Position numbers and translations under genes: made by a program
The notes under the pieces: generated by a model
The model's input: the letters and a program-made list of their open reading frames with translations, nothing else
The model's database searches: none
What the model was told of the DNA's origin: nothing
From: Eubacteriaceae bacterium ES3
Lineage (GTDB): Bacteria; Bacillota; Clostridia; Eubacteriales; Eubacteriaceae
Assembly (NCBI GenBank): GCA_030586155.1
Contig: CP130741.1
Coordinates: forward strand, 2,102,680 to 2,166,679
Length of the DNA stretch: 64,000 nucleotides
Direction: 5' to 3'
Part shown: positions 45,921 to 63,402 of the stretch, piece by piece
How positions within the stretch are numbered: the stretch's first letter is position 1
Layout of the letters: each line of letters begins with the position of its first letter

Positions 45921-45944
45921 ACTAAAAAATAAATAATCATTTCG

Positions 45945-46107
45945 ATAGAGGTGCGGACTTTATCAGTCATTTACCTGACCATGGCAAATGGGATGACGGT
46001 AGATAAAAGGAAAGTTCGCCGAAGGAATTTATGTTGCCGCCTATTTTCCTGGGCCGATTGTAAATAACAATCGGACTGTCATCATAATTATGATGGGGTG
46101 CTATCTA
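45945..46107 (+). promoter_or_regulatory. lysine riboswitch (L box)
   Basis: Conserved L-box segments are readable in order: AGAGGTGCGG at the 5' side of P1, a GAC/TCAG-type loop near 45975, AGTTCGCCGAAGG near 46014, CTGGGCCGATTG and its pairing partner CAATCGGACTG near 46050-46078, and GGGGTGCTATCT closing P1. The location in front of asd-dapA-dapB fits lysine control of the diaminopimelate/lysine pathway. A terminator follows, so lysine probably causes premature termination. Confidence 0.93.
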
Positions 46108-46110
46108 AAG

Positions 46111-46135
46111 TTTAATCTCTATAGAGATTTCTTTT
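46111..46135 (+). terminator. riboswitch-controlled terminator
   Basis: The stem aatctct/agagatt is followed by TTTCTTTTT, directly after the lysine aptamer and about 65 bp before asd. It is presumably the expression platform. Confidence 0.8.
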
Positions 46136-50326: not shown

Positions 50327-51019
50327 TTAATCAATATGGAGAGCACCCTTTACCACTTCTTCATCAAGATCATTAAAATCGATCATTTTTCCAGTGTTGA
50401 TGTAGAAAACAGTTTCAAAAATATTAGTAGCATGATCGCCGATTCGCTCCAGATAGCTCCCGATAAAAATAAATTTAGACCCCTGGTCGACGTTTTGTCG
50501 GTCTTTAATCATATATTCTGTACATTCTGACTGAATCAAGTAATTAACCTGATCCAATTCATTTTCCAGATCGATGACCTTTTTGATCTGTGAGATATCT
50601 TCATTAATATAGGCCTGAATACAAATCTTTAAAAGTTCCTTAGCCAAATCAGCAGCTTTAGGGATATCAACCAGCTCTTTCATATAAGTTGTATTTTTCA
50701 ACTCAAGGACTTTCTGAGAGATATTGACTGATAAATCGGCAACTCGCTCAAGATTAGTGATAATTTTATAGCTGGAAGACAGGCGTCTTAAATCTGTAGC
50801 TACTGGTCCTTGACGGGCAATAATCTCTCCTACCATCATGGTCAGTTCAATTTCTTTTTGATCAACAAGATCGTCCCGATTAATAACGTCCTCAGCCAAT
50901 TCAATTTCTTTATTTTTCAGTGCATGAACTGAGTCTGAGACCATTTTTTCAACTACTGTTGTCATCAATAAAATATCTTCTTTGACCATTGTTAACTCAT
51001 TATCATAATTTTTACGCAT
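50327..51019 (-). CDS. phoU: PhoU, phosphate-uptake regulator
   Basis: PhoU restrains the Pst transporter and the Pho response when phosphate is plentiful. The protein (230 residues) is two three-helix bundles with the family's E/D-rich repeats (for example LSSSYKIITNLERVADLSVNIS and FIGSYLERIGDHATNI). The ATG at 51019 has AGAGGAG upstream; a longer frame overlapping pstB is less likely. It ends the pstSCAB-phoU operon. Confidence 0.95.
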   Translation of the reverse strand: MRKNYDNELTMVKEDILLMTTVVEKMVSDSVHALKNKEIELAEDVINRDDLVDQKEIELTMMVGEIIARQGPVATDLRRLSSSYKIITNLERVADLSVNISQKVLELKNTTYMKELVDIPKAADLAKELLKICIQAYINEDISQIKKVIDLENELDQVNYLIQSECTEYMIKDRQNVDQGSKFIFIGSYLERIGDHATNIFETVFYINTGKMIDFNDLDEEVVKGALHID

Positions 51020-51032
51020 ATAACAACTCCTC

Positions 51033-51791
51033 TCAACCAAATCGTCCAGTAATGTAATCTTCAGTTCGCTTATCTTCAGGGTTAGTAAATATTTTCGGTG
51101 TTTCATCAAATTCTATCACTTCACCCATTAAGAAGAAGGCGGTTTTATCGGAAATTCGCCCAGCTTGTTGCATGGAGTGGGTTACAATAATAATAGTATA
51201 GTCCTTTTTAAGCTCTGCCATTAATTCTTCTATTTTAGCCGTAGCAATTGGGTCAAGTGCCGATGTTGGTTCATCCATCAGTATAACTTCGGGATTCATA
51301 GCTATAGTTCGGGCAATGCAAAGTCGCTGCTGCTGGCCTCCAGAAAGACCGAGTGCTGATTTATCCAATCGATCTTTCACCTCATCCCAGATGGCCGCTT
51401 TAACCAGTGAATCTTTAACAATCACATCAAGTTTTTTCTTGTCTTTCATCCCCTGACAGCGAGGTCCATAAGCAATATTATCATAAATACTCATTGGAAA
51501 TGGATTAGGTTTTTGAAATACCATTCCCACTCTTGTTCTTAAATTAATGACATCTACGTCTCCATTGATATCCTGTCCATCAAAAATAATTTCGCCCTGA
51601 ATTCTCACTGAGTCGATCAGGTCGTTCATCCGATTTAGACATCTGAGATAAGTGGATTTTCCACAGCCGGAAGGTCCGATAAATGCCGTCACTTCATTTT
51701 CAATAACATCCATATTGATAGATTTGAGTGCCTGAAAATCTCCATAAAAAAGATCAAGATTTCTCGTGCTAAACTTTATTTTTTTTTCCAT
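51033..51791 (-). CDS. pstB: phosphate ABC transporter ATP-binding protein
   Basis: PstB powers high-affinity phosphate import. The 252-residue ATPase has Walker [10 protein letters not shown], the signature [13 protein letters not shown] and Walker [14 protein letters not shown]. The start lies 8 bp after pstA and the end 13 bp before phoU. Confidence 0.97.
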
Positions 51792-51799
51792 TTTACACC

Positions 51800-53005
51800 T
51801 TATTTTTTATTGAATACATCAAGTTTATCTGTTGCCAGTCGGGAAAGGATATTCAGGACAATAACAACCAGAATGATTATCACTCCGATAGCGCAGGAAA
51901 GTTTGATGTTGCCAGATTCTTTCGCTACATAATAAGCCTGAACAGTCAATGTGGAACCTGGGGAGAACAAAGATTCAGGAATTTGAGCAACTGTTCCGGC
52001 AGTCAGTAAGAGCGCTGCAGACTCGCCAATAACACGACCAATGCTTAAAAGTACTGCTGTGGCAATCCCCGGAACAGCACAAGGCAAAACTACTTTGAAA
52101 ATAGTCTGAAGTTTAGTTGCGCCAAGCGCCAACGATCCTTCTCTGAATGACATCGGAACAGTTTTTAAAGCTTCCTCTGTACTTCTGATTATGACAGGCA
52201 AAAGAATAATAGCAACGGTTAAACTACCAGATAACAATGAAATCTGCATTTTAAGAGCTACTACGAAAAATGCCATCCCGAATAGACCAAAAATAATTGA
52301 TGGTATACCCGAAAGAGTTTCCGCCGCAAATCGGATCGTATTAACCAGTTTTCCAGGCTTGGCATATTCCGTTAAATAGATTGCCCCAAAGATTCCAATC
52401 GGCAATGCAATCGCTAAAGCTAGTAGTACCATATACAAAGTGGTAATAATGTTAGAGTAAATCCCGCCACCTGGCTGAATAATTTTTATTTTCAATTCGC
52501 CGGACTGACTTTCTATAACGCTGGCAACTTCTTCCAGGCTTAAATCGTCGAAATCTTCATCATTAATACTCTTTAGAATATAGTCTGTTCCAATTTTAAC
52601 CGCCTCACCATTGGAAATAACTGCATCAAGCATTGGTGAATTATCTTCAATGTAAGAGATGACAAATTGTTCCCGCTCTGTAGTATGATTTTTGTAGTGT
52701 ACCTGTGAGATGGCAATCCCCAAATTCTCTACATAGATTGGTCCATCGAGCAAAGTTTCATAGCGTGAATCCAGTTCTTTTTCGGCATTGATATCCTCAA
52801 TATCAACGGTAGCCGGAATATCAGCGGAATCAACAAACACATAGGAAACTTTTTCATTAAAATCTCGCGTTAAAAAATCAAGATTAACAAGGCCAATCCC
52901 TTGTACAAATATAAAACCAATTATAAACAGTAGAACTGCCAGCGTCAAGCCTGTTGCTGTGTAGATCAGCGATTTTAAAATATTATCTTTTAGTTTCTGG
53001 CTCAT
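51800..53005 (-). CDS. pstA: phosphate ABC transporter permease PstA with an extracytoplasmic insert
   Basis: This is one half of the membrane channel of the Pst transporter. The C-terminal 270 residues are a standard permease with the EAA-type loop ([23 protein letters not shown]). The protein is 401 residues, about 100 longer than most PstA. The extra part lies between the first membrane segment (about 12-34) and the second (about 190), so it should face outward. Part of it ([21 protein letters not shown], then [12 protein letters not shown]) looks PDZ-like. It may interact with PstS or sense the surface. Confidence 0.93.
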
Positions 53006-53006
53006 A

Positions 53007-53888
53007 TCAGCTACCTACCTTAGATTTTACAACTCTGTTTACAACTACATTGATAATCATAATAAATACAAATAATACGACCCCAGTTGAATACAGCAGC
53101 TGCTGGTGAACACCTGATGCATACCCCATTTCCAAAGCAATATTGGTTGTCAGCGGTCGAACCTGATCAAATAAACTGGTCGGAATACCTGCGATGGGGT
53201 TACCACAAACCAGCATAACGGCCATAGTTTCACCAATTGCTCGTCCAATCCCCAAAATCACTCCTGTGATAATCCCAGATTTTCCGGCTGGTATAATAAC
53301 TTTAAAAATTGTCTGCATCTCTGTTGCACCCAGAGCCAATGAGCCTTCTTTGTATTCCCGAGGAACTGCCGAAATAGAAGTTTCTGAAATACTTACAACG
53401 GTAGGTAAAATCATGATTGTCAAAACCAGAATGGTTGCCAGCAGAGATTCTCCCTGTGCCATCGGCGAAATTTTTAGCACATATGGAACGATGATCCCTA
53501 ATCCAAAAATACCGTATAATACCGAGGGAATCCCAGCAAGTAATTCGACAGCAAATCTGATTATTTTACCTGCCCATCCTTTAGCCATCTGTGAAATAAA
53601 TACAGCAGTTAAAATAGCAATGGGTACACCAATTAGAATTGCTCCGAAGGTCGCAAAGATCGATCCAACGATCATATAAAAAACACCATACTGATTGTTA
53701 CCAGGTCGCCACTCAACGCCTGAAATAAAATCCCAAATTGGATAAGATCCGCTCACGAATGGTGCGAGTCCGTTATAAAACACATAAAAAGTAATTGCCA
53801 GTACACTGATTACTGCCACAAAGGCGCATATCAGAAAAAAACTTTCAATCACTCTTTCTCTAAATTTACTAACTTTTGTTTCTTCCAA
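53007..53888 (-). CDS. pstC: phosphate ABC transporter permease PstC
   Basis: PstC is the other channel subunit. It is 293 residues with about six membrane segments and the EAA-type loop [21 protein letters not shown], very like that of PstA. It starts 75 bp after pstS behind a hairpin, so its level is probably lower than that of the binding protein. It ends 2 bp before pstA. Confidence 0.96.
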   Translation of the reverse strand: MEETKVSKFRERVIESFFLICAFVAVISVLAITFYVFYNGLAPFVSGSYPIWDFISGVEWRPGNNQYGVFYMIVGSIFATFGAILIGVPIAILTAVFISQMAKGWAGKIIRFAVELLAGIPSVLYGIFGLGIIVPYVLKISPMAQGESLLATILVLTIMILPTVVSISETSISAVPREYKEGSLALGATEMQTIFKVIIPAGKSGIITGVILGIGRAIGETMAVMLVCGNPIAGIPTSLFDQVRPLTTNIALEMGYASGVHQQLLYSTGVVLFVFIMIINVVVNRVVKSKVGS

Positions 53889-53928
53889 AGCTATCGCTCC
53901 TTAAAAAGAATTTCTCAAACAAAAAGAA

Positions 53929-53956
53929 AGGCTCCTGACTTTCGGCAGGAGCCTTA
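53929..53956 (-). terminator. partial terminator between pstS and pstC
   Basis: A 10-bp perfect stem, aaggctcctg with caggagcctt, is followed on the minus strand by TCTTTTTG. It lies between the binding-protein gene and the permease genes and is likely to lower downstream expression. Confidence 0.8.
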
Positions 53957-53963
53957 AGTTTAA

Positions 53964-54815
53964 TTAAAGTACTGAGATTGCCCCATTTTCTTCAACAATT
54001 GCCTGTCCTTCTTCAGTCATTAAGTAATCAATGAAGGCCAGTGTAGCATCGTCTACAGAATCTTCCAGATACATAATCAGGAAAGGACGAGCTACTGGAT
54101 ATGTGCCACTCTTGATATTGTCTACAGTACATTCAGTTCCATCAACAGTCACAGCATTAATTGTATCATCAACATAAGTTAAAGATACATAGCCAATTGC
54201 ATTTTCGTTACCAGCAACAGTTGTCTGAACATTACCATTACCTTCTTTAACTGTAGCATCAGCTTTTAACTGATCTTCAAAGCCCATCAGTTCTTCGAAA
54301 GCACCACGTGTACCTGAACCATCCTCACGAGAAACAACAACGATTGGTGCATCAGCTCCACCGACTTCAGACCAGTTAGTAATTTCGCCTTTGTAAATGC
54401 TTGTAATCTGTTCAGAAGTTAAAGCTGTAACACCGTTAGCAGGATTGACAACAACAGCAATACCGTCATAAGCAAATTCTATGGCTGTTAAGTTATCCAT
54501 TTCTTCTTCGGCTTTCAATTCACGAGAAGCACATCCAAAAGAATATGTTCCTTCTGTAGCCCCTTTAACACCATCTGAAGAACCTGTTCCACTATAAGTG
54601 AAAGTTACATCTGGATTTAAAGCAGAAAACTCTGATCCTGCTGCATCGATAATATGCTGTACTGAGGTTGAACCCCCACCGTTGATTTCACCAGCAATTC
54701 CTGCTGAATCAGAAGATGAAGAATCTGTTGAAGATGAAGATCCACATCCTGCAAAAGCCATTACCGAAGCTCCTACGAGCAGGCTCACTAAAACCGTTTT
54801 TAATTTTCTTGTCAT
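53964..54815 (-). CDS. pstS: phosphate-binding lipoprotein PstS
   Basis: PstS captures phosphate outside the membrane and hands it to PstA/PstC. The preprotein (283 residues) has a lipoprotein signal (LLVGASVMAFAGC, lipidated cysteine near residue 24), a Ser-rich linker, then ligand motifs GGGSTSVQH, SGTGSSDG and SREDGSGTRGAF. I choose the ATG at 54815 with AAGGAG upstream. Three Pho boxes lie before it, so it should be induced by phosphate shortage. Confidence 0.95.
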   Translation of the reverse strand: MTRKLKTVLVSLLVGASVMAFAGCGSSSSTDSSSSDSAGIAGEINGGGSTSVQHIIDAAGSEFSALNPDVTFTYSGTGSSDGVKGATEGTYSFGCASRELKAEEEMDNLTAIEFAYDGIAVVVNPANGVTALTSEQITSIYKGEITNWSEVGGADAPIVVVSREDGSGTRGAFEELMGFEDQLKADATVKEGNGNVQTTVAGNENAIGYVSLTYVDDTINAVTVDGTECTVDNIKSGTYPVARPFLIMYLEDSVDDATLAFIDYLMTEEGQAIVEENGAISVL

Positions 54816-54894
54816 TGTTCTCTCCTTAATTTTCAATAGTATGTGTTTGACAGACTTATCTTAGCAAATCTAATGCTTCCTTTGGTTTTAAACA

Positions 54895-54922
54895 GGTAAA
54901 GATTATGTTAAGAACATGTTAA
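54895..54922 (-). promoter_or_regulatory. three tandem Pho boxes (PhoP binding sites)
   Basis: On the minus strand, TTAACA (54917-54922), TTAACA (54906-54911) and TTTACC (54895-54900) repeat every 11 bp. This is the direct-repeat pattern bound by PhoP in Firmicutes. They lie about 80-107 bp before the pstS start. No phoP or phoR gene is in the window. Confidence 0.85.
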
Positions 54923-59305: not shown

Positions 59306-59355
59306 AAAAAAAACAGCGAGAGAAAATGCTTGCTTTTCTTCATTTTCGCTTGCTG
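59306..59355 (-). terminator. strong terminator after non-coding RNA 1
   Basis: The stem of cagcgag/cttgctg and gaaaatg/cattttc is followed on the minus strand by T8. It would stop transcripts from the RNA locus before the diguanylate cyclase gene. Confidence 0.85.
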
Positions 59356-59384
59356 CTTTCTCTTTTTAAATTTTATTTTTAACA

Positions 59385-59782
59385 GACTTAAGCCGATCCC
59401 ACATTTTCATCTGTAGAACCGGCTCAGTCTAAAATCTCTTCAGTTGTCATCCGTTTGGATTCCTCCTATTGAGTTTTATCAAAAATCATTTTCTCCTTTT
59501 TAGTTTACATATTGCTATTTTTAATACTTTAGTCTCCGTCACCTATTATACTTTACTCGATTTTGACTTTCAGATTTTCTATACACTTGTTTCTTTTGTG
59601 CTTTAGATTTTCTTTAAATCTATCTCTTTCACTTTTTGTTTTATAGGTTCTGATGACTTTTACTCTTTTCCCTTAATCTTTGTTCAAAAGAGCTTTCAGT
59701 TTTTTACTCTGAGTTTTCTTCTGTTAGACTATTTGGATAGCAATTTTTCTTTTCTAAAAAGTTTTGGTTGATCTTTGATTTA
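59385..59782 (-). ncRNA. structured purine-rich RNA, copy 1 (unknown class)
   Basis: A transcript from the promoter at 59788-59815 would be about 400 nt, rich in A and G. Four nested helices bring its ends together: 59770-59779 with 59478-59487, 59754-59761 with 59496-59503, 59737-59744 with 59511-59518, and 59726-59731 with 59530-59535. Local hairpins at 59663-59692 and 59604-59622 are also perfect. The 3' end has AGGAGG, an 8-codon frame and a stem (59391-59424). Copy 2 at 62.9-63.3 kb keeps the ends and the pairing with different bases. I know no named class that fits. Confidence 0.7.
59424..59450 (-). CDS. 8-codon reading frame in RNA copy 1
   Basis: ATG to TGA encodes MTTEEILD, with AGGAGG (59462-59467) 11 bases upstream. 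The identical peptide occurs in copy 2, where one codon (Leu, TTA versus TTG) and the stop (TGA versus TAA) differ. That suggests selection on the peptide or on the act of translation. The stop codon is the first part of a hairpin. Confidence 0.55.
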   Translation of the reverse strand: MTTEEILD

Positions 59783-59787
59783 AAGTA

Positions 59788-59860
59788 ATTATAGCACCTT
59801 TAAAAAATAAGTAAATAGATTTTTTGTAAACGTTTGTATTTTTGTTGTAAACGTTATCTA
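59788..59860 (-). promoter_or_regulatory. promoter and two cre-like sites of RNA copy 1
   Basis: On the minus strand, TTTACT (59810-59815) and TATAAT (59788-59793) are 16 bp apart. Upstream are two TGTAAACGTT motifs (59826-59839 and 59847-59860) that match the CcpA cre pattern at 12 and 13 of 14 positions. Catabolite control is an inference. Confidence 0.65.
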
Positions 59861-60145
59861 TCATTTTTCCTGAATGATTACTACTGCATTATATACAATT
59901 GTTCGTTTACCTTCTAGATCAAACAGAACCTTATTACCATACTCAGTGTCCTCAATATCAACTTTTCCATCGTATTCTGCTAATAGCGTACCACTTTGAG
60001 AATAAACAGAAATATGCCGATCTAATCCACCAGTCCATTCTGACTGAGTCGTTTTAATATCACGGCCTAGTGATTCACAGCCTGTAGAAAAAAATAAACT
60101 AACTGTGAAAAAAATCGCCAGGAGCAGCCATTTAAAATTCTTCAT
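59861..60145 (-). CDS. small lipoprotein, unknown function
   Basis: This 94-residue protein has a signal peptide with a lipobox (LLLAIFFTVSLFFSTGC) and a short beta-rich domain (VYSQSGTLLAEYDGKVDI). I recognise no named family beyond small surface lipoproteins of Clostridia. Its stop lies next to the outermost cre-like site of the downstream RNA locus. Confidence 0.8.
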   Translation of the reverse strand: MKNFKWLLLAIFFTVSLFFSTGCESLGRDIKTTQSEWTGGLDRHISVYSQSGTLLAEYDGKVDIEDTEYGNKVLFDLEGKRTIVYNAVVIIQEK

Positions 60146-60207
60146 CTCCTTCTCCTTTACCTTTCGATATTTTTAATTAGAACACTACATAACGCTGTCC
60201 AAAATAA

Positions 60208-60381
60208 TTATTTAGTTTTACTTATATACCACCAAATCAATTCAAATAACAATTGTTTTCGATTATGCTGCTTCCAGACCTTCCCAGCTTTCCTGTCTGC
60301 TAACATACTGATGTCAAAATCCAAATAAAACAGAACTTTTGCTTTAACCTCAAAAGTTTTATTTTTGATATCTATAGTCAT
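60208..60381 (-). CDS. possible 57-residue protein
   Basis: An uninterrupted frame runs from ATG at 60381 to TAA at 60208, with AAAGG about ten bases upstream. The product begins MTIDIKNKTFEVKAK and ends in an amphipathic FELIWWYISKTK. Composition looks protein-like, with alternating charge and hydrophobic residues. I recognise no family. It occupies the gap between the lipoprotein and EAL genes; otherwise nothing was seen there. Confidence 0.35.
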   Translation of the reverse strand: MTIDIKNKTFEVKAKVLFYLDFDISMLADRKAGKVWKQHNRKQLLFELIWWYISKTK

Positions 60382-60610
60382 AAGCTATTAACCTTTACCA
60401 AGGCTTATGTATAATTTTTAATTTATCTTACACAGTCTTAACACTATTTCTGATTTTAATTCTGATAATCTTTCTAAAAGGCCTCAAATCATATATTTTC
60501 AAAATATTTTAGTATCTTTTATGAATTTTTCTTATATTTATGTGTATAATAAGAACAATCTATCAGAAAAATCACTTAAAAATTTATTCATTTTTTTCAG
60601 GAGGGTTCCA

Positions 60611-62554
60611 TTGATATTCTTATTAAATACTCGATTTCAGATTGCTGCCATTCTCTTTTTTACTATCATTGTTTATGATTTCTTCAAAAATTTAAAGTTA
60701 CCGCTCTTATCCAATAAAGTATTCTCTGCCATGCTTTTTTTTACTGGACTTTATCTTATCCTGGATATTACCGGTGTCTATACAAGGCTTAATATGGATA
60801 CTGTTTCTCCGCTACTGCTTAGAACGATCCATCAGCTTTTTATTTCCACTACCATTATTATCCTGATGCTTTTATATCTTTATGTTCAAATCTTAGCCAA
60901 TAACCATAAAAAACTATCTAAAAAGCGACTGTTATTTACCTTTGCACCCCTAATTTTAATGATAACATTTGTCTTTTTCGGGCCGCTCGATTATCATGTC
61001 GATAGCACAAGTACCTACACTACTGGTCCAGTAAGTATCATAACCTATTTTTCAGTCGTGTTTTACATTAGCCTGACCGTCATTCGAATTGTAACTGCTG
61101 GAAATACGATCCATCATGAACGAAAGATTTCGCTGATCACTGGAACTATGATTTGGGTTATTGCTTCTATCGTTCAGTTTTTTAACAGGGATATACTAAT
61201 TTCATCCATGGCAGTTGCCTTGATGACGCTCTTTATCTATCTCTCATTTGAAAACCCTAAAGAACATTTTGATGTGGAAACCCGTACCCTCAATAAAAGA
61301 GCCTTTCATCTGATGCTAAATGATCAGTATGATGCAAAAAAAAATATCCTCCTAGTTTCGGTAGTCATAGATGATCTTTTGCAAATTCAATCTACTATTG
61401 GCCACAGTAATGTCAATCAACTGCTGGAAGTCATTGCAAATAAAATGCAAACCATTTTTTCAACCTATGTCTTTCATTCCCGCAGCAATGTCTTAAGTGT
61501 TATTTTGCATCAACCACAAAATTTAGTAGAAATCAGATTGCTTGAAATGGAAGCCTATCTTGACCAGATGTTCAATGTCGGTCAATTCAGTGTATTGCCA
61601 CGCTTTCATATCGACATAATCAATACAGAAGTTGTTAAGGAATCCTGTGATGAAGTTTATGAATTGATGAACTATATGACCGCCCACCATCAGGCAATTC
61701 GCGGCAAAAAAGTTTATTTGCTGGACGATGAAATTATTGCCCAAAAACAACGTTATACTACAATCGACAAACTATTACATCATGCCATTGAACACGATGG
61801 CTTTACCGTTGTCTATCAGCCCATATTCGATGTCCATAAAAAAGGTTTTCGTTCAGCTGAAGCACTGGTTCGGCTCACTGATAACCAAACTATTGGATTT
61901 ATTTCTCCGGAAGAATTTATCGTTATTGCTGAACGTAAGGGGCTGATTATGGATCTGGGACGGATTGTCTTTGAAAAAGTTTGTACTTTTGCGTCGAAAA
62001 ACAAGCTCTATGAGGGAGAATTTGACTATATTGAAGTCAATTTATCAGGAATTCAATGTGTTCACCCTGACCTGCCTCGACAACTTGAGTCAATTATGAA
62101 AGAACACCATATTCCGCCAGCCTTTTTAAATCTTGAAATAACTGAAACGGCTTCAGTAGAGTCCGGTGAAATGCTAGATCGAAATATGGTTGACCTGAGA
62201 AATCTGGGATGCAGTTTTTCTATGGACGATTTCGGAACCGGCTATTCCAACCTTTCTAAAATGAGTGAAGTGGTGTATGATCTGGTTAAAATCGATAAAA
62301 GCCTGATCTGGCCGTGCTTTACTAATGATAATAACCAAAAGTCATTGGCTATTCTTAAAAATATGATTAATATGCTCTTGGAACTCAATGTCAAAATTGT
62401 AGCCGAGGGTATTGAAACAAAAGAAATGTGTGATTTTCTGGAAGAACAGAATATTACTTACCTGCAAGGTTACTATTTCTCAAAGCCCATTTCCGAGGAT
62501 GCTTTTCTTGAATTCTTAAAAAACCATCCACTTCAAGAAGAAACTGCATCTTAA
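60611..62554 (+). CDS. membrane EAL-domain protein (cyclic di-GMP phosphodiesterase)
   Basis: The protein (647 residues) has about seven N-terminal membrane segments of the histidine-kinase 7TM type (residues 5-210), a degenerate GGDEF domain that lacks the motif (about 225-390), and a C-terminal EAL domain with EALVRL near 416, VNLSG, LEITET, DDFGTG near 538, KIDKS and VAEGIET. All these catalytic elements are present, so it should degrade cyclic di-GMP. I choose the TTG at 60611, which has AGGAGGG right upstream; the frame extends to 60521 but without a ribosome site. Confidence 0.92.
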   Translation: MIFLLNTRFQIAAILFFTIIVYDFFKNLKLPLLSNKVFSAMLFFTGLYLILDITGVYTRLNMDTVSPLLLRTIHQLFISTTIIILMLLYLYVQILANNHKKLSKKRLLFTFAPLILMITFVFFGPLDYHVDSTSTYTTGPVSIITYFSVVFYISLTVIRIVTAGNTIHHERKISLITGTMIWVIASIVQFFNRDILISSMAVALMTLFIYLSFENPKEHFDVETRTLNKRAFHLMLNDQYDAKKNILLVSVVIDDLLQIQSTIGHSNVNQLLEVIANKMQTIFSTYVFHSRSNVLSVILHQPQNLVEIRLLEMEAYLDQMFNVGQFSVLPRFHIDIINTEVVKESCDEVYELMNYMTAHHQAIRGKKVYLLDDEIIAQKQRYTTIDKLLHHAIEHDGFTVVYQPIFDVHKKGFRSAEALVRLTDNQTIGFISPEEFIVIAERKGLIMDLGRIVFEKVCTFASKNKLYEGEFDYIEVNLSGIQCVHPDLPRQLESIMKEHHIPPAFLNLEITETASVESGEMLDRNMVDLRNLGCSFSMDDFGTGYSNLSKMSEVVYDLVKIDKSLIWPCFTNDNNQKSLAILKNMINMLLELNVKIVAEGIETKEMCDFLEEQNITYLQGYYFSKPISEDAFLEFLKNHPLQEETAS

Positions 62555-62571
62555 TTCTGTACTAGCTTTAA

Positions 62572-62760
62572 TTAAACCCTGCAGTTAAACCCTGCAGTCG
62601 GTTCGCTGACCTGCGCTCTTTACTGGCTGGCTAACAGATTTTTCTAATACCCATAGTCAACTAGACTCTTAGAACCTACTACAGCGAAAAAACGAACCTT
62701 GCGGCACTCGGTTCCGCTGACGCTTCACCTCGTCGCGTCAGTCGCCTTATGGCTCCTTCC
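62572..62760. repeat. GC-rich intergenic segment with short repeats
   Basis: Two head-to-tail copies of ttaaaccctgcag (62572-62584, 62585-62597) begin a GC-rich stretch that also contains ggttcgctgac and ggttccgctgac, and a stem ctgacgc...gcgtcag (about 62717-62741). No gene was seen. It looks like a dispersed intergenic repeat of the host genome. Confidence 0.5.
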
Positions 62761-62762
62761 TT

Positions 62763-62824
62763 CTGAAAATATAAAAAGAACTTAAAACAAACGAGTTTGC
62801 TTTAAGTTCTTTTTATATTTTCAG
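62763..62824. repeat. perfect 24-bp inverted repeat hairpin
   Basis: The arms at 62763-62786 and 62801-62824 are exact reverse complements over 24 bases, with a 14-base loop that contains a further caaac/gtttg pairing. It lies downstream of both the EAL gene and RNA copy 2, so a shared terminator is possible, but the length and perfection are unusual. Confidence 0.75.
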
Positions 62825-62854
62825 AGCCGCATGGCTCGTTGTTTCGCGCAAAAA

Positions 62855-63302
62855 AGACTTTAGCCGGTTCTGCATTTTTTTATTGCTGAACCGGCTTAGT
62901 CCAAAATCTCTTCAGTTGTCATCCGTTTGGATTCCTCCTATTGATTTTTTATCAAAGATTGTTTTCTTTTTCAGTTAATTGTTAACCTTTTTATTTAAGA
63001 TTTTCTGGTTTTCATTTTGCTTCAAAGTTTAATGATTTTTAATCTCTTTTCTTTTGGAGAAGTGAGCGAATTTTATTGAGTTTAACTTCCTTTAATAATG
63101 CTCGGAAGTTTTTCGATAATTTTCTTGCAATCTTAAACTTTTTCGTGAAGCTTTTTTACTTGCCTTCTTTTCTTAATTCTTTGAATTCTTTCGGATTCTT
63201 TACCAAATACAATTTGAGTGACTGTTTCAGCTTTTAACTGATCTGCTGTTTCAATAATTATTTGGTGGTTATTTTTCTGAAAAATTTGTTTATCTTTGAT
63301 GT
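62855..63302 (-). ncRNA. structured purine-rich RNA, copy 2 (unknown class)
   Basis: A transcript of about 445 nt from the promoter at 63309-63336 resembles copy 1. Long-range helices pair 63292-63300 with 62951-62959, 63277-63284 with 62967-62974, and 63267-63271 with 62983-62987. Local stems pair 63259-63266 with 63202-63209, and 63084-63090 with 63104-63110. The middle sequence is unlike copy 1, but pairing at the same places is kept with different bases. The 3' end has AGGAGG, an 8-codon frame and a terminator stem (62862-62896) followed by T6. No downstream gene lies on this strand, so it is not a simple leader. Confidence 0.7.
62896..62922 (-). CDS. 8-codon reading frame in RNA copy 2
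   Basis: ATG to TAA encodes MTTEEILD, the same peptide as in copy 1, with AGGAGG at 62934-62939. Its stop codon runs into the terminator stem, so a ribosome ending here would interfere with hairpin folding. Confidence 0.55.
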   Translation of the reverse strand: MTTEEILD

Positions 63303-63308
63303 AAGATA

Positions 63309-63402
63309 ATTATAGCACTTCCTTGAAAAAAGTAAATAGATTTCTTGTAAACGTTTGTATTTATTTTATATGATTGTCGTAATATAATTGTAAACGTTTT
63401 TA
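63309..63402 (-). promoter_or_regulatory. promoter and two cre-like sites of RNA copy 2
   Basis: On the minus strand, TTTACT (63331-63336) and TATAAT (63309-63314) are 16 bp apart, as in copy 1. cre-like TGTAAACGTT motifs lie at 63346-63359 and 63389-63402, farther apart than in copy 1. Confidence 0.65.

Follow-up and report, generated by a model that had tools for sequence, protein, structure and literature searches.

Two sequences in a 64,000-nucleotide stretch of the genome of Eubacteriaceae bacterium ES3 (this whole stretch is referred to as the window) are members of an apparently undescribed family of large folded RNAs, which has several copies in Acetobacterium genomes and fewer in some relatives. 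As judged from the sequences, the architecture of the family is that of a gene with its own promoter, usually with upstream TTTACA-type repeats, and a predicted RNA of about 310-1,100 nt in which a closing helix (P1) and inner helices would tie the 5' end to a site ~26-28 nt upstream of a start codon; there follow a strong Shine-Dalgarno (SD) sequence, an open reading frame (the mini-ORF), usually of exactly seven codons, whose putative product is mostly of the form M-x-x-E-x-x-x, and a stop codon able to pair in the stem of the predicted terminator. The family, the ends of the RNA and the mini-ORF are well supported by the comparison of related copies; expression and function are what we infer. 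The explanation placed first, tentatively and at a little short of an even chance, is that of a stand-alone structured RNA that would also be a heptapeptide gene and whose fold would control the access of the ribosome. A sequence-only reading of the window had proposed a stand-alone structured RNA with its ends held together, possibly of a new class, and this is supported by 85 matches in the genus and by further matches in other genera. It was correct but understated the case: the structured RNA was recognised, and the mini-ORF, the direct-repeat promoter, the number of paralogues and the position of the stop codon within the terminator were missed.

Copies and distribution of the family

BLASTN of both window copies against the source genome (3.39 Mb, one contig), together with a reading of the loci, gave seven copies, two inside the window and five elsewhere. 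To assemble a set of full copies, the presence of the promoter core and a -10 box and of UCAA close to the 5' end was required; 18 genomes yielded 78 such copies, and 32 of them were used to build a covariance model (CM) of the 3' domain. With a cut-off of 82 bits this model gave 85 strong matches, tallied by hand, in 18 of the 19 Acetobacterium genomes, the seven of the source genome included, and indicated that the paralogues of a single genome number as many as about ten; one genome of the genus (G007) had no match to the 3'-domain model. Divergent members were found in four further genera of the family, namely in 5/5 genomes of g5, 2/2 of g18, 1/1 of g2 and 1/1 of g19, with a total of 21 CM matches of which 15 were inspected in full. 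Under the stricter filters of two wider CM searches there were no matches in 27 genomes from other families of the order, and among 391 genomes across the class six had matches, all of them members of the Eubacteriaceae. A covariance-model search had been proposed by the sequence-only reading as a check; carried out here with the 3' domain it found homologues, and these did not show an uncompensated drift of paired positions. A scan of the species-genome collection with the mini-ORF pattern gave 24 stretches, the titles of which name Acetobacterium, Eubacterium callanderi, E. barkeri, E. aggregans, a Eubacteriaceae MAG and four Bacillota/Firmicutes MAGs. Single searches of viral_contigs with the mini-ORF pattern, of plasmids with copy 1 and of phages with copy 2 gave no matches. 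BLAST matches in two genomes of other families (G030 and G033) were excluded, as only the purine-rich middle matches. The matches below 82 bits that were inspected (L177, L178, L179, L180, L181 and L091) resemble decayed copies or plain terminators; in the short remnant L178 (~252980-253103), which looks like a decayed copy, the promoter boxes are almost directly joined to the mini-ORF and terminator and the body has gone.

Among relatives the ends of the RNA recur and the middles diverge, so that length ranges from 307 to 1098 nt across the copies. Inspection by eye showed that the middle of the long copies L071, L085, L104, L117 and L123 contains degenerate repeats of ~30 nt of the AGAAAAACCATTCCTGGATTTA type. 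In the middle of the Eubacterium-type copies L163, L165, L167, L170, L171, L172 and L173 the motif ACUUAUAGCAUAUAGAGACUUAAGU, or a variant of it, is present, twice in L171, and 11/11 matches to this pattern in 40 genomes of the family lie directly upstream of a 3'-domain match and so inside these RNAs. No title found in the open-access PMC text describes this RNA. In PMC5651825, a dRNA-seq study, E. limosum intergenic ncRNAs with transcription starts are listed, and it is possible that the RNA was already detected among them.

The two copies in the window

Both strands were read; the promoter and ends described earlier are present in both copies, which lie on the minus strand, and all four long-range helices, two per copy, are at the positions claimed for them. 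Copy 1 occupies 59380-59782, with a predicted 5' end at ~59782 and a conserved 3' hairpin that extends to ~59380, and its CM match (G000:C1:2162060-2162192, minus strand) scores 115 bits. The -10 box TATAAT (59788-59793) and the -35 sequence TTTACT (59810-59815) were read directly and recur in the promoter logo of the 78 copies, and the repeat boxes AAACGTTTACA (59825-59835) and AACGTTTACA (59845-59854) were likewise read and appear in the promoter alignment. P1 is formed by AUCAAAGAUC (59770-59779) and GAUUUUUGAU (59478-59487), with one G-U pair, and coincides with the closing stem given by RNAalifold; P2 is formed by CUUUUUAG (59754-59761), a helix with counterparts in four of five orthologue groups, and CUAAAAAG (59496-59503), again read and also given by RNAalifold. 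Two further nested helices had been claimed for copy 1 and were recovered by a helix search, in which 2/31 foreign 3' parts scored equally: AUUGCUAU (59737-59744) with AUAGCAAU (59511-59518) and UAGUCU (59726-59731) with AGACUA (59530-59535). The SD sequence AGGAGG (59462-59467), identified by reading and by its pairing energy, precedes a mini-ORF that runs from ATG to TGA at 59424-59450 and reads MTTEEILD (eight codons), and the stop codon lies in the 5' arm of the 3' hairpin (59380-59429). The U-run behind this conserved hairpin is poor; another hairpin, read by eye at 59306-59362 and with eight U behind it, is a probable back-up terminator.

Copy 2 has predicted ends at 62850 and 63303 and a CM match (G000:C1:2165531-2165665, minus strand) of 104 bits. 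Its -10 box TATAAT (63309-63314) and -35 sequence TTTACT (63331-63336) agree with the promoter logo, and two AAACGTTTACA repeat boxes lie at 63346-63356 and 63389-63399, as read and as aligned. AUCAAAGAU (63292-63300) pairs with AUCUUUGAU (62951-62959) to give P1 and UUUUUCAG (63277-63284) with CUGAAAAA (62967-62974) to give P2; the inner helices returned by the search used for copy 1 are at chance level, 30/31 foreign 3' parts being as good. The SD sequence AGGAGG (62934-62939; read, and by pairing energy) is followed by a mini-ORF from ATG to TAA (62896-62922), again MTTEEILD in eight codons, with its stop codon in the 5' arm of the predicted terminator (62850-62901). Neither copy contains an ORF of at least 50 aa on the strand of the transcript. 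Directly downstream of copy 2 is a near-perfect inverted repeat (62750-62839; AAAATATAAAAAGAACTTAAA both ways), for which cmscan flags only microRNA look-alikes and which is perhaps a bidirectional terminator or a MITE-like element.

Long-range pairing

Five orthologue groups of 6-11 sequences each were folded with RNAalifold. P1 of the AUCAAAGAUC/GAUUUUUGAU type was found in all five, P2 of the UCCUUUUC/GAAAAG type in four and a third helix, P3, of the GUAAAY/RUUUAC type in four, and just inside these a helix of varied sequence (for example CCAACU/AGUUGG, CACUUG/CAAGUG or ACCUUAACU/GGUUAAGUGU) was present in all five. For this varied inner helix, in 16 group representatives drawn from the 43/78 copies that have the anchor motif, partners from the same copy scored a mean of 13.5 against 10.7 for swapped partners, and 0/2000 shuffles reached the observed value; these compensating changes support the structured RNA proposed earlier. 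It is on the closing stem in the five groups and on this swap test that the case for long-range pairing beyond chance rests overall.

Over 32 group representatives 95% of the P1 cells are paired, compared with 32-57% when slid by 1-4 columns, a figure that is partly built in because both strands of pairs 3-6 served as anchors. Other controls are weak. Swapping P1 partners was uninformative (40% of foreign partners were equally good) since P1 hardly varies, and for the same reason two-sided changes are few, being confined to positions 7, 9 and 10, each in single groups. P2 at a fixed position across groups is weak (62% paired against 64% when slid by one), and a search for two helices without constraints gives little separation (26.0 against 24.6). 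The end of P1 lies 26-28 nt upstream of the AUG in 68/77 copies located, and longer copies hold extra internal hairpins.

A putative seven-codon gene that runs into the predicted terminator

A caller that accepted the earliest suitable ATG whose stop came 5-9 codons later found a mini-ORF in 85/85 strong matches, of seven codons in 83 and of eight in two, which are the two window copies. Codon 4 is Glu in 78/85 and the residue is absent in 7/85, the commonest peptides being MTTEILD, MTTEIVN, MTTEIVS and MTSEIES. In the other genera 15/15 members inspected, of 21 matches, have seven codons with Glu4 (MLTEIER, MLTESER, MQTEPKN, MKPESER, MKPESEH, MLTESEN, MVIEQHC and MTKESQD). The energy of SD pairing with the 16S tail has a mean of -15.9 kcal/mol over 78 copies, compared with -4.6 for the stretches upstream of 541 AUGs inside these RNAs. 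Mini-ORF, SD sequence and reading frame are all conserved in the family; in a dual-function sRNA the ORF would in addition be translated and the RNA regulatory. Whilst the earlier description of a structured RNA was right, the label "non-coding" is probably wrong now that a seven-codon ORF has been found. To our knowledge this mini-ORF would be among the shortest conserved genes known.

Counted from the A of the AUG, the terminator stem begins 17 or 19 nt downstream in 65/78 copies, two-sided changes occur in 8/13 of its pairs, and in 75/78 full copies the stop codon is fully paired within its 5' arm. The open stretch from P1 to the terminator is ~43-47 nt, which approximates one ribosome footprint, and in several groups codons 4-6 can pair with a stretch upstream of the SD sequence (AAAAUC/GAUUUU, AGAUUC/GAAUCU). 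This last helix is only suggestive, as 304/5000 swapped-partner shuffles were equally good, and codons 4-6 may be conserved through base pairing instead of through the peptide. A landing pad about the size of one ribosome footprint and bounded by two stems, a terminator at +17/+19, a strong SD sequence and the potential pairing of codons 4-6 are all features expected of the main rival explanation, in which the RNA itself would be the product, a ribosome-anchored scaffold or decoy with a ribosome parked between P1 and the terminator, and the peptide an incidental by-product. We regard it as unlikely, since two observations suggest that the peptide matters: Glu4 is encoded by both GAA and GAG and is kept in five genera, and single-base differences in codons 2-6, tallied over related pairs, show an excess of synonymous changes in the ORF frame (156 synonymous and 124 not) compared with the other two frames (35:197 and 21:225). 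Shuffling of third positions, however, barely raised peptide diversity, and 107/1000 shuffles were as low as observed.

The paralogues differ in their bodies and, as regards the peptide, chiefly at its C-terminal end. A length nearly fixed at seven, paralogue-specific last residues, multiple copies and promoter boxes of two-component type could all be accommodated if the locus were simply a gene for a heptapeptide signal, with different pheromone-like peptides encoded by the paralogues and the long RNA serving as a mere stability leader. This is decidedly improbable, because seven codons would be too few to include an export signal and covarying long-range stems would be superfluous in a simple leader.

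Promoters and a candidate regulator

Alignment of the 78 promoters shows boxes of the form T-A/T-T/C-ACA, ATACA and TTTACA at 11- and 10-bp steps, and downstream of these the logo reads TTTACT at -35 and then TGnTATAAT, the promoter core having belonged to the rule by which the 78 copies were selected. The CM matches were found without the promoter, and 81/85 have the core and a -10 box, under a loose rule, within 1,150 nt upstream. By eye, the promoters of the E. limosum group have the same kind of repeats and the E. barkeri-type and g2 copies have no such repeats. Direct repeats of TTWACA type ~11 bp apart near the promoter would fit a regulator of the PhoB/WalR class, and this assignment is a guess. 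The B. subtilis WalR consensus is given as TGTWAH-N5-TGTWAH in PMC9210968, and the promoter array resembles the reverse complement of that consensus.

The core AAACGTTTACA occurs at 10 sites genome-wide compared with 12 for the reversed pattern and so is not enriched, and 8/10 of the sites are at the seven RNA copies. One of the remaining sites precedes the gene of a PhoB/YycF-like regulator and the other precedes another gene, presumably of a PHP-domain protein. The identity of the regulator is a guess because this core-sharing response regulator, at 277 bits for YycF and 263 bits for PhoB, is under both cut-offs and because the repeats are absent from the E. barkeri-type and g2 copies. To us the core also looks like a catabolite-repression site; a response-regulator array is preferred over a CRE/LacI-type operator, which was rejected, since the alignment of the 78 promoters shows repeats ~11 bp apart. 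The promoter of a pstS-like gene in the window contains TTAACA-N5-TTAACA-N5-TTTACC (54895-54922), which the RNA promoter array resembles, and the genes at 50327-54922 on the minus strand are what we take to be a pstS-pstC-pstA-pstB-phoU-like operon. Such box pairs, with one mismatch allowed, are not enriched in the window (4 compared with 3.5 expected). Purely phosphate control of the RNAs is possible, but the core-sharing regulator scores below the PhoB and YycF cut-offs.

Genomic neighbourhood

The downstream gene is on the same strand in 47/78 copies and on the opposite strand in 30/78, with none in the locus of the remaining copy; an opposite-strand gene follows at least one copy of 14/32 groups, and downstream genes vary between paralogues. 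The orientation of neighbours bears directly on the proposal that the RNA is a cis-acting leader or attenuator, in which ribosomes at the stop codon would open the terminator so that transcription entered the downstream gene; for a leader attenuator or a riboswitch a co-directional gene would be expected consistently at this place. The stop codon within the terminator in 75/78 copies is what such a device would require, and in one orthologue group of 10 copies the downstream gene is always on the same strand, but opposite orientation in so many copies and groups, and the variety of genes downstream of paralogues, led to its rejection (47 same and 30 opposite of 78), and we consider it very improbable. 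The stand-alone status proposed earlier is instead borne out by this orientation, together with the RNA's own promoter and the two-sided changes in its terminator.

The upstream gene ends 18-19 nt ahead of the promoter core in one orthologue group; we take this gene to be TIGR03936-like and the gene that follows the RNA to be a nucleoside diphosphate kinase. Visual inspection showed an upstream gene of similar kind next to copies in Eubacterium, g19 and g2, and this sharing across genera makes the family appear old and inherited; it looks to be without recent mobility. GGDEF/EAL genes adjoin both window copies, and a link with c-di-GMP was rejected because many neighbours of copies elsewhere differ. 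Directly upstream of copy 1 on the minus strand is a lipoprotein-like ORF of 94 aa (59861-60145) with no NCBIfam or Pfam match. Elsewhere in the window there is a lysine riboswitch at 45938-46111 (120 bits), the only Rfam match of the window, followed by genes that are presumably of the lysine pathway.

A model for the RNA and its putative peptide

Joined ends and a tiny gene that runs into its own stop signal give these RNAs the appearance of RNA devices from which a minute peptide is produced as well. In the proposed mechanism a PhoB/WalR-class response regulator would control the RNAs and the folded body would keep the ribosome landing pad open or masked. A ribosome could then dock between P1 and the terminator, translate the seven codons and open the base of the terminator, the output being the heptapeptide together with a ribosome-dependent state of the RNA. 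The paralogues may be parallel channels of one system, as their bodies and mainly the last residues of their peptides differ. The gating step is a guess because the start-site helix does not stand clearly above swapped partners. Taken whole, the more specific version, in which a body of at most 1.1 kb would act as a gated dock for the ribosomes that translate a gene exactly seven codons long, the M-x-x-E-x-x-x heptapeptides would be conserved, translation would remodel the RNA's own terminator and parallel copies would be under a WalR/PhoB-type regulator, is possible rather than probable. If true, a multicopy RNA class would be added to studied acetogens, and if the body gates the ribosome this would be a new kind of translation-coupled RNA device. 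Published data of direct relevance include dRNA-seq and Ribo-seq for A. woodii (PMC8407422) and Ribo-seq within a study of E. limosum (PMC6260860).

Comparison with known RNA classes

The known classes tested do not fit the RNA. At the gathering threshold of Rfam 15 no family matches it in the window, in 20 copy loci or in 13 divergent or extra-copy loci, in agreement with the earlier failure to assign it to a named class, and the matches that do occur in those loci (a lysine riboswitch, a TPP riboswitch and two L21 leaders) are all outside the RNAs. When hits near the window copies were admitted at E values up to 5, only a microRNA look-alike touched the RNA (59380-59434, E 1.1), and ARAGORN found no tmRNA or tRNA genes in the whole window. 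In cmscan of the RNA loci against all Rfam models there was no match to OLE, ROOL, GOLLD or raiA; the first three, we assume, have models in the Rfam library. The raiA model is RF03072 (PMC11706538).

OLE, ROOL and GOLLD are likewise large structured bacterial RNAs, and they are reported to form homo-oligomeric complexes (PMC12286853). A scaffold RNA of their kind, bearing a short 3' ORF by chance, would account for the size, the stand-alone gene, the closing stem and the extra internal hairpins of longer copies, but the family here does not match Rfam at the gathering threshold and its copies range from 307 to 1098 nt, so that this is a slender prospect. It differs from OLE, ROOL and GOLLD further in having up to ~ten paralogues per genome and a variable body with a constant 3' mini-ORF. 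The raiA motif RNA, or ModT, is likewise a conserved structured RNA of Bacillota and is reported in more than 2,500 species (PMC11706538). Unlike raiA, the family here was seen in one bacterial family only, has a mini-ORF and lacks an Rfam match.

Three systems share features of the mini-ORF. Leader-peptide attenuators have a very short ORF overlapping a terminator, as is the case here, but the present family has no consistent downstream gene. In tmRNA the ends are held together and there is a short ORF with a stop codon near a helix, and the likeness lies in the joined ends and in a short ORF whose stop adjoins a helix; here, unlike in tmRNA, the ORF has an SD sequence and an AUG of its own and occupies the 3' end. 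The dual-function sRNAs SgrS and RNAIII are structured RNAs that are also mRNAs of small proteins, of tens of residues, and the present family is like them in that a single transcript would serve as structured RNA and mRNA, whereas its ORF has seven codons and runs into the terminator.
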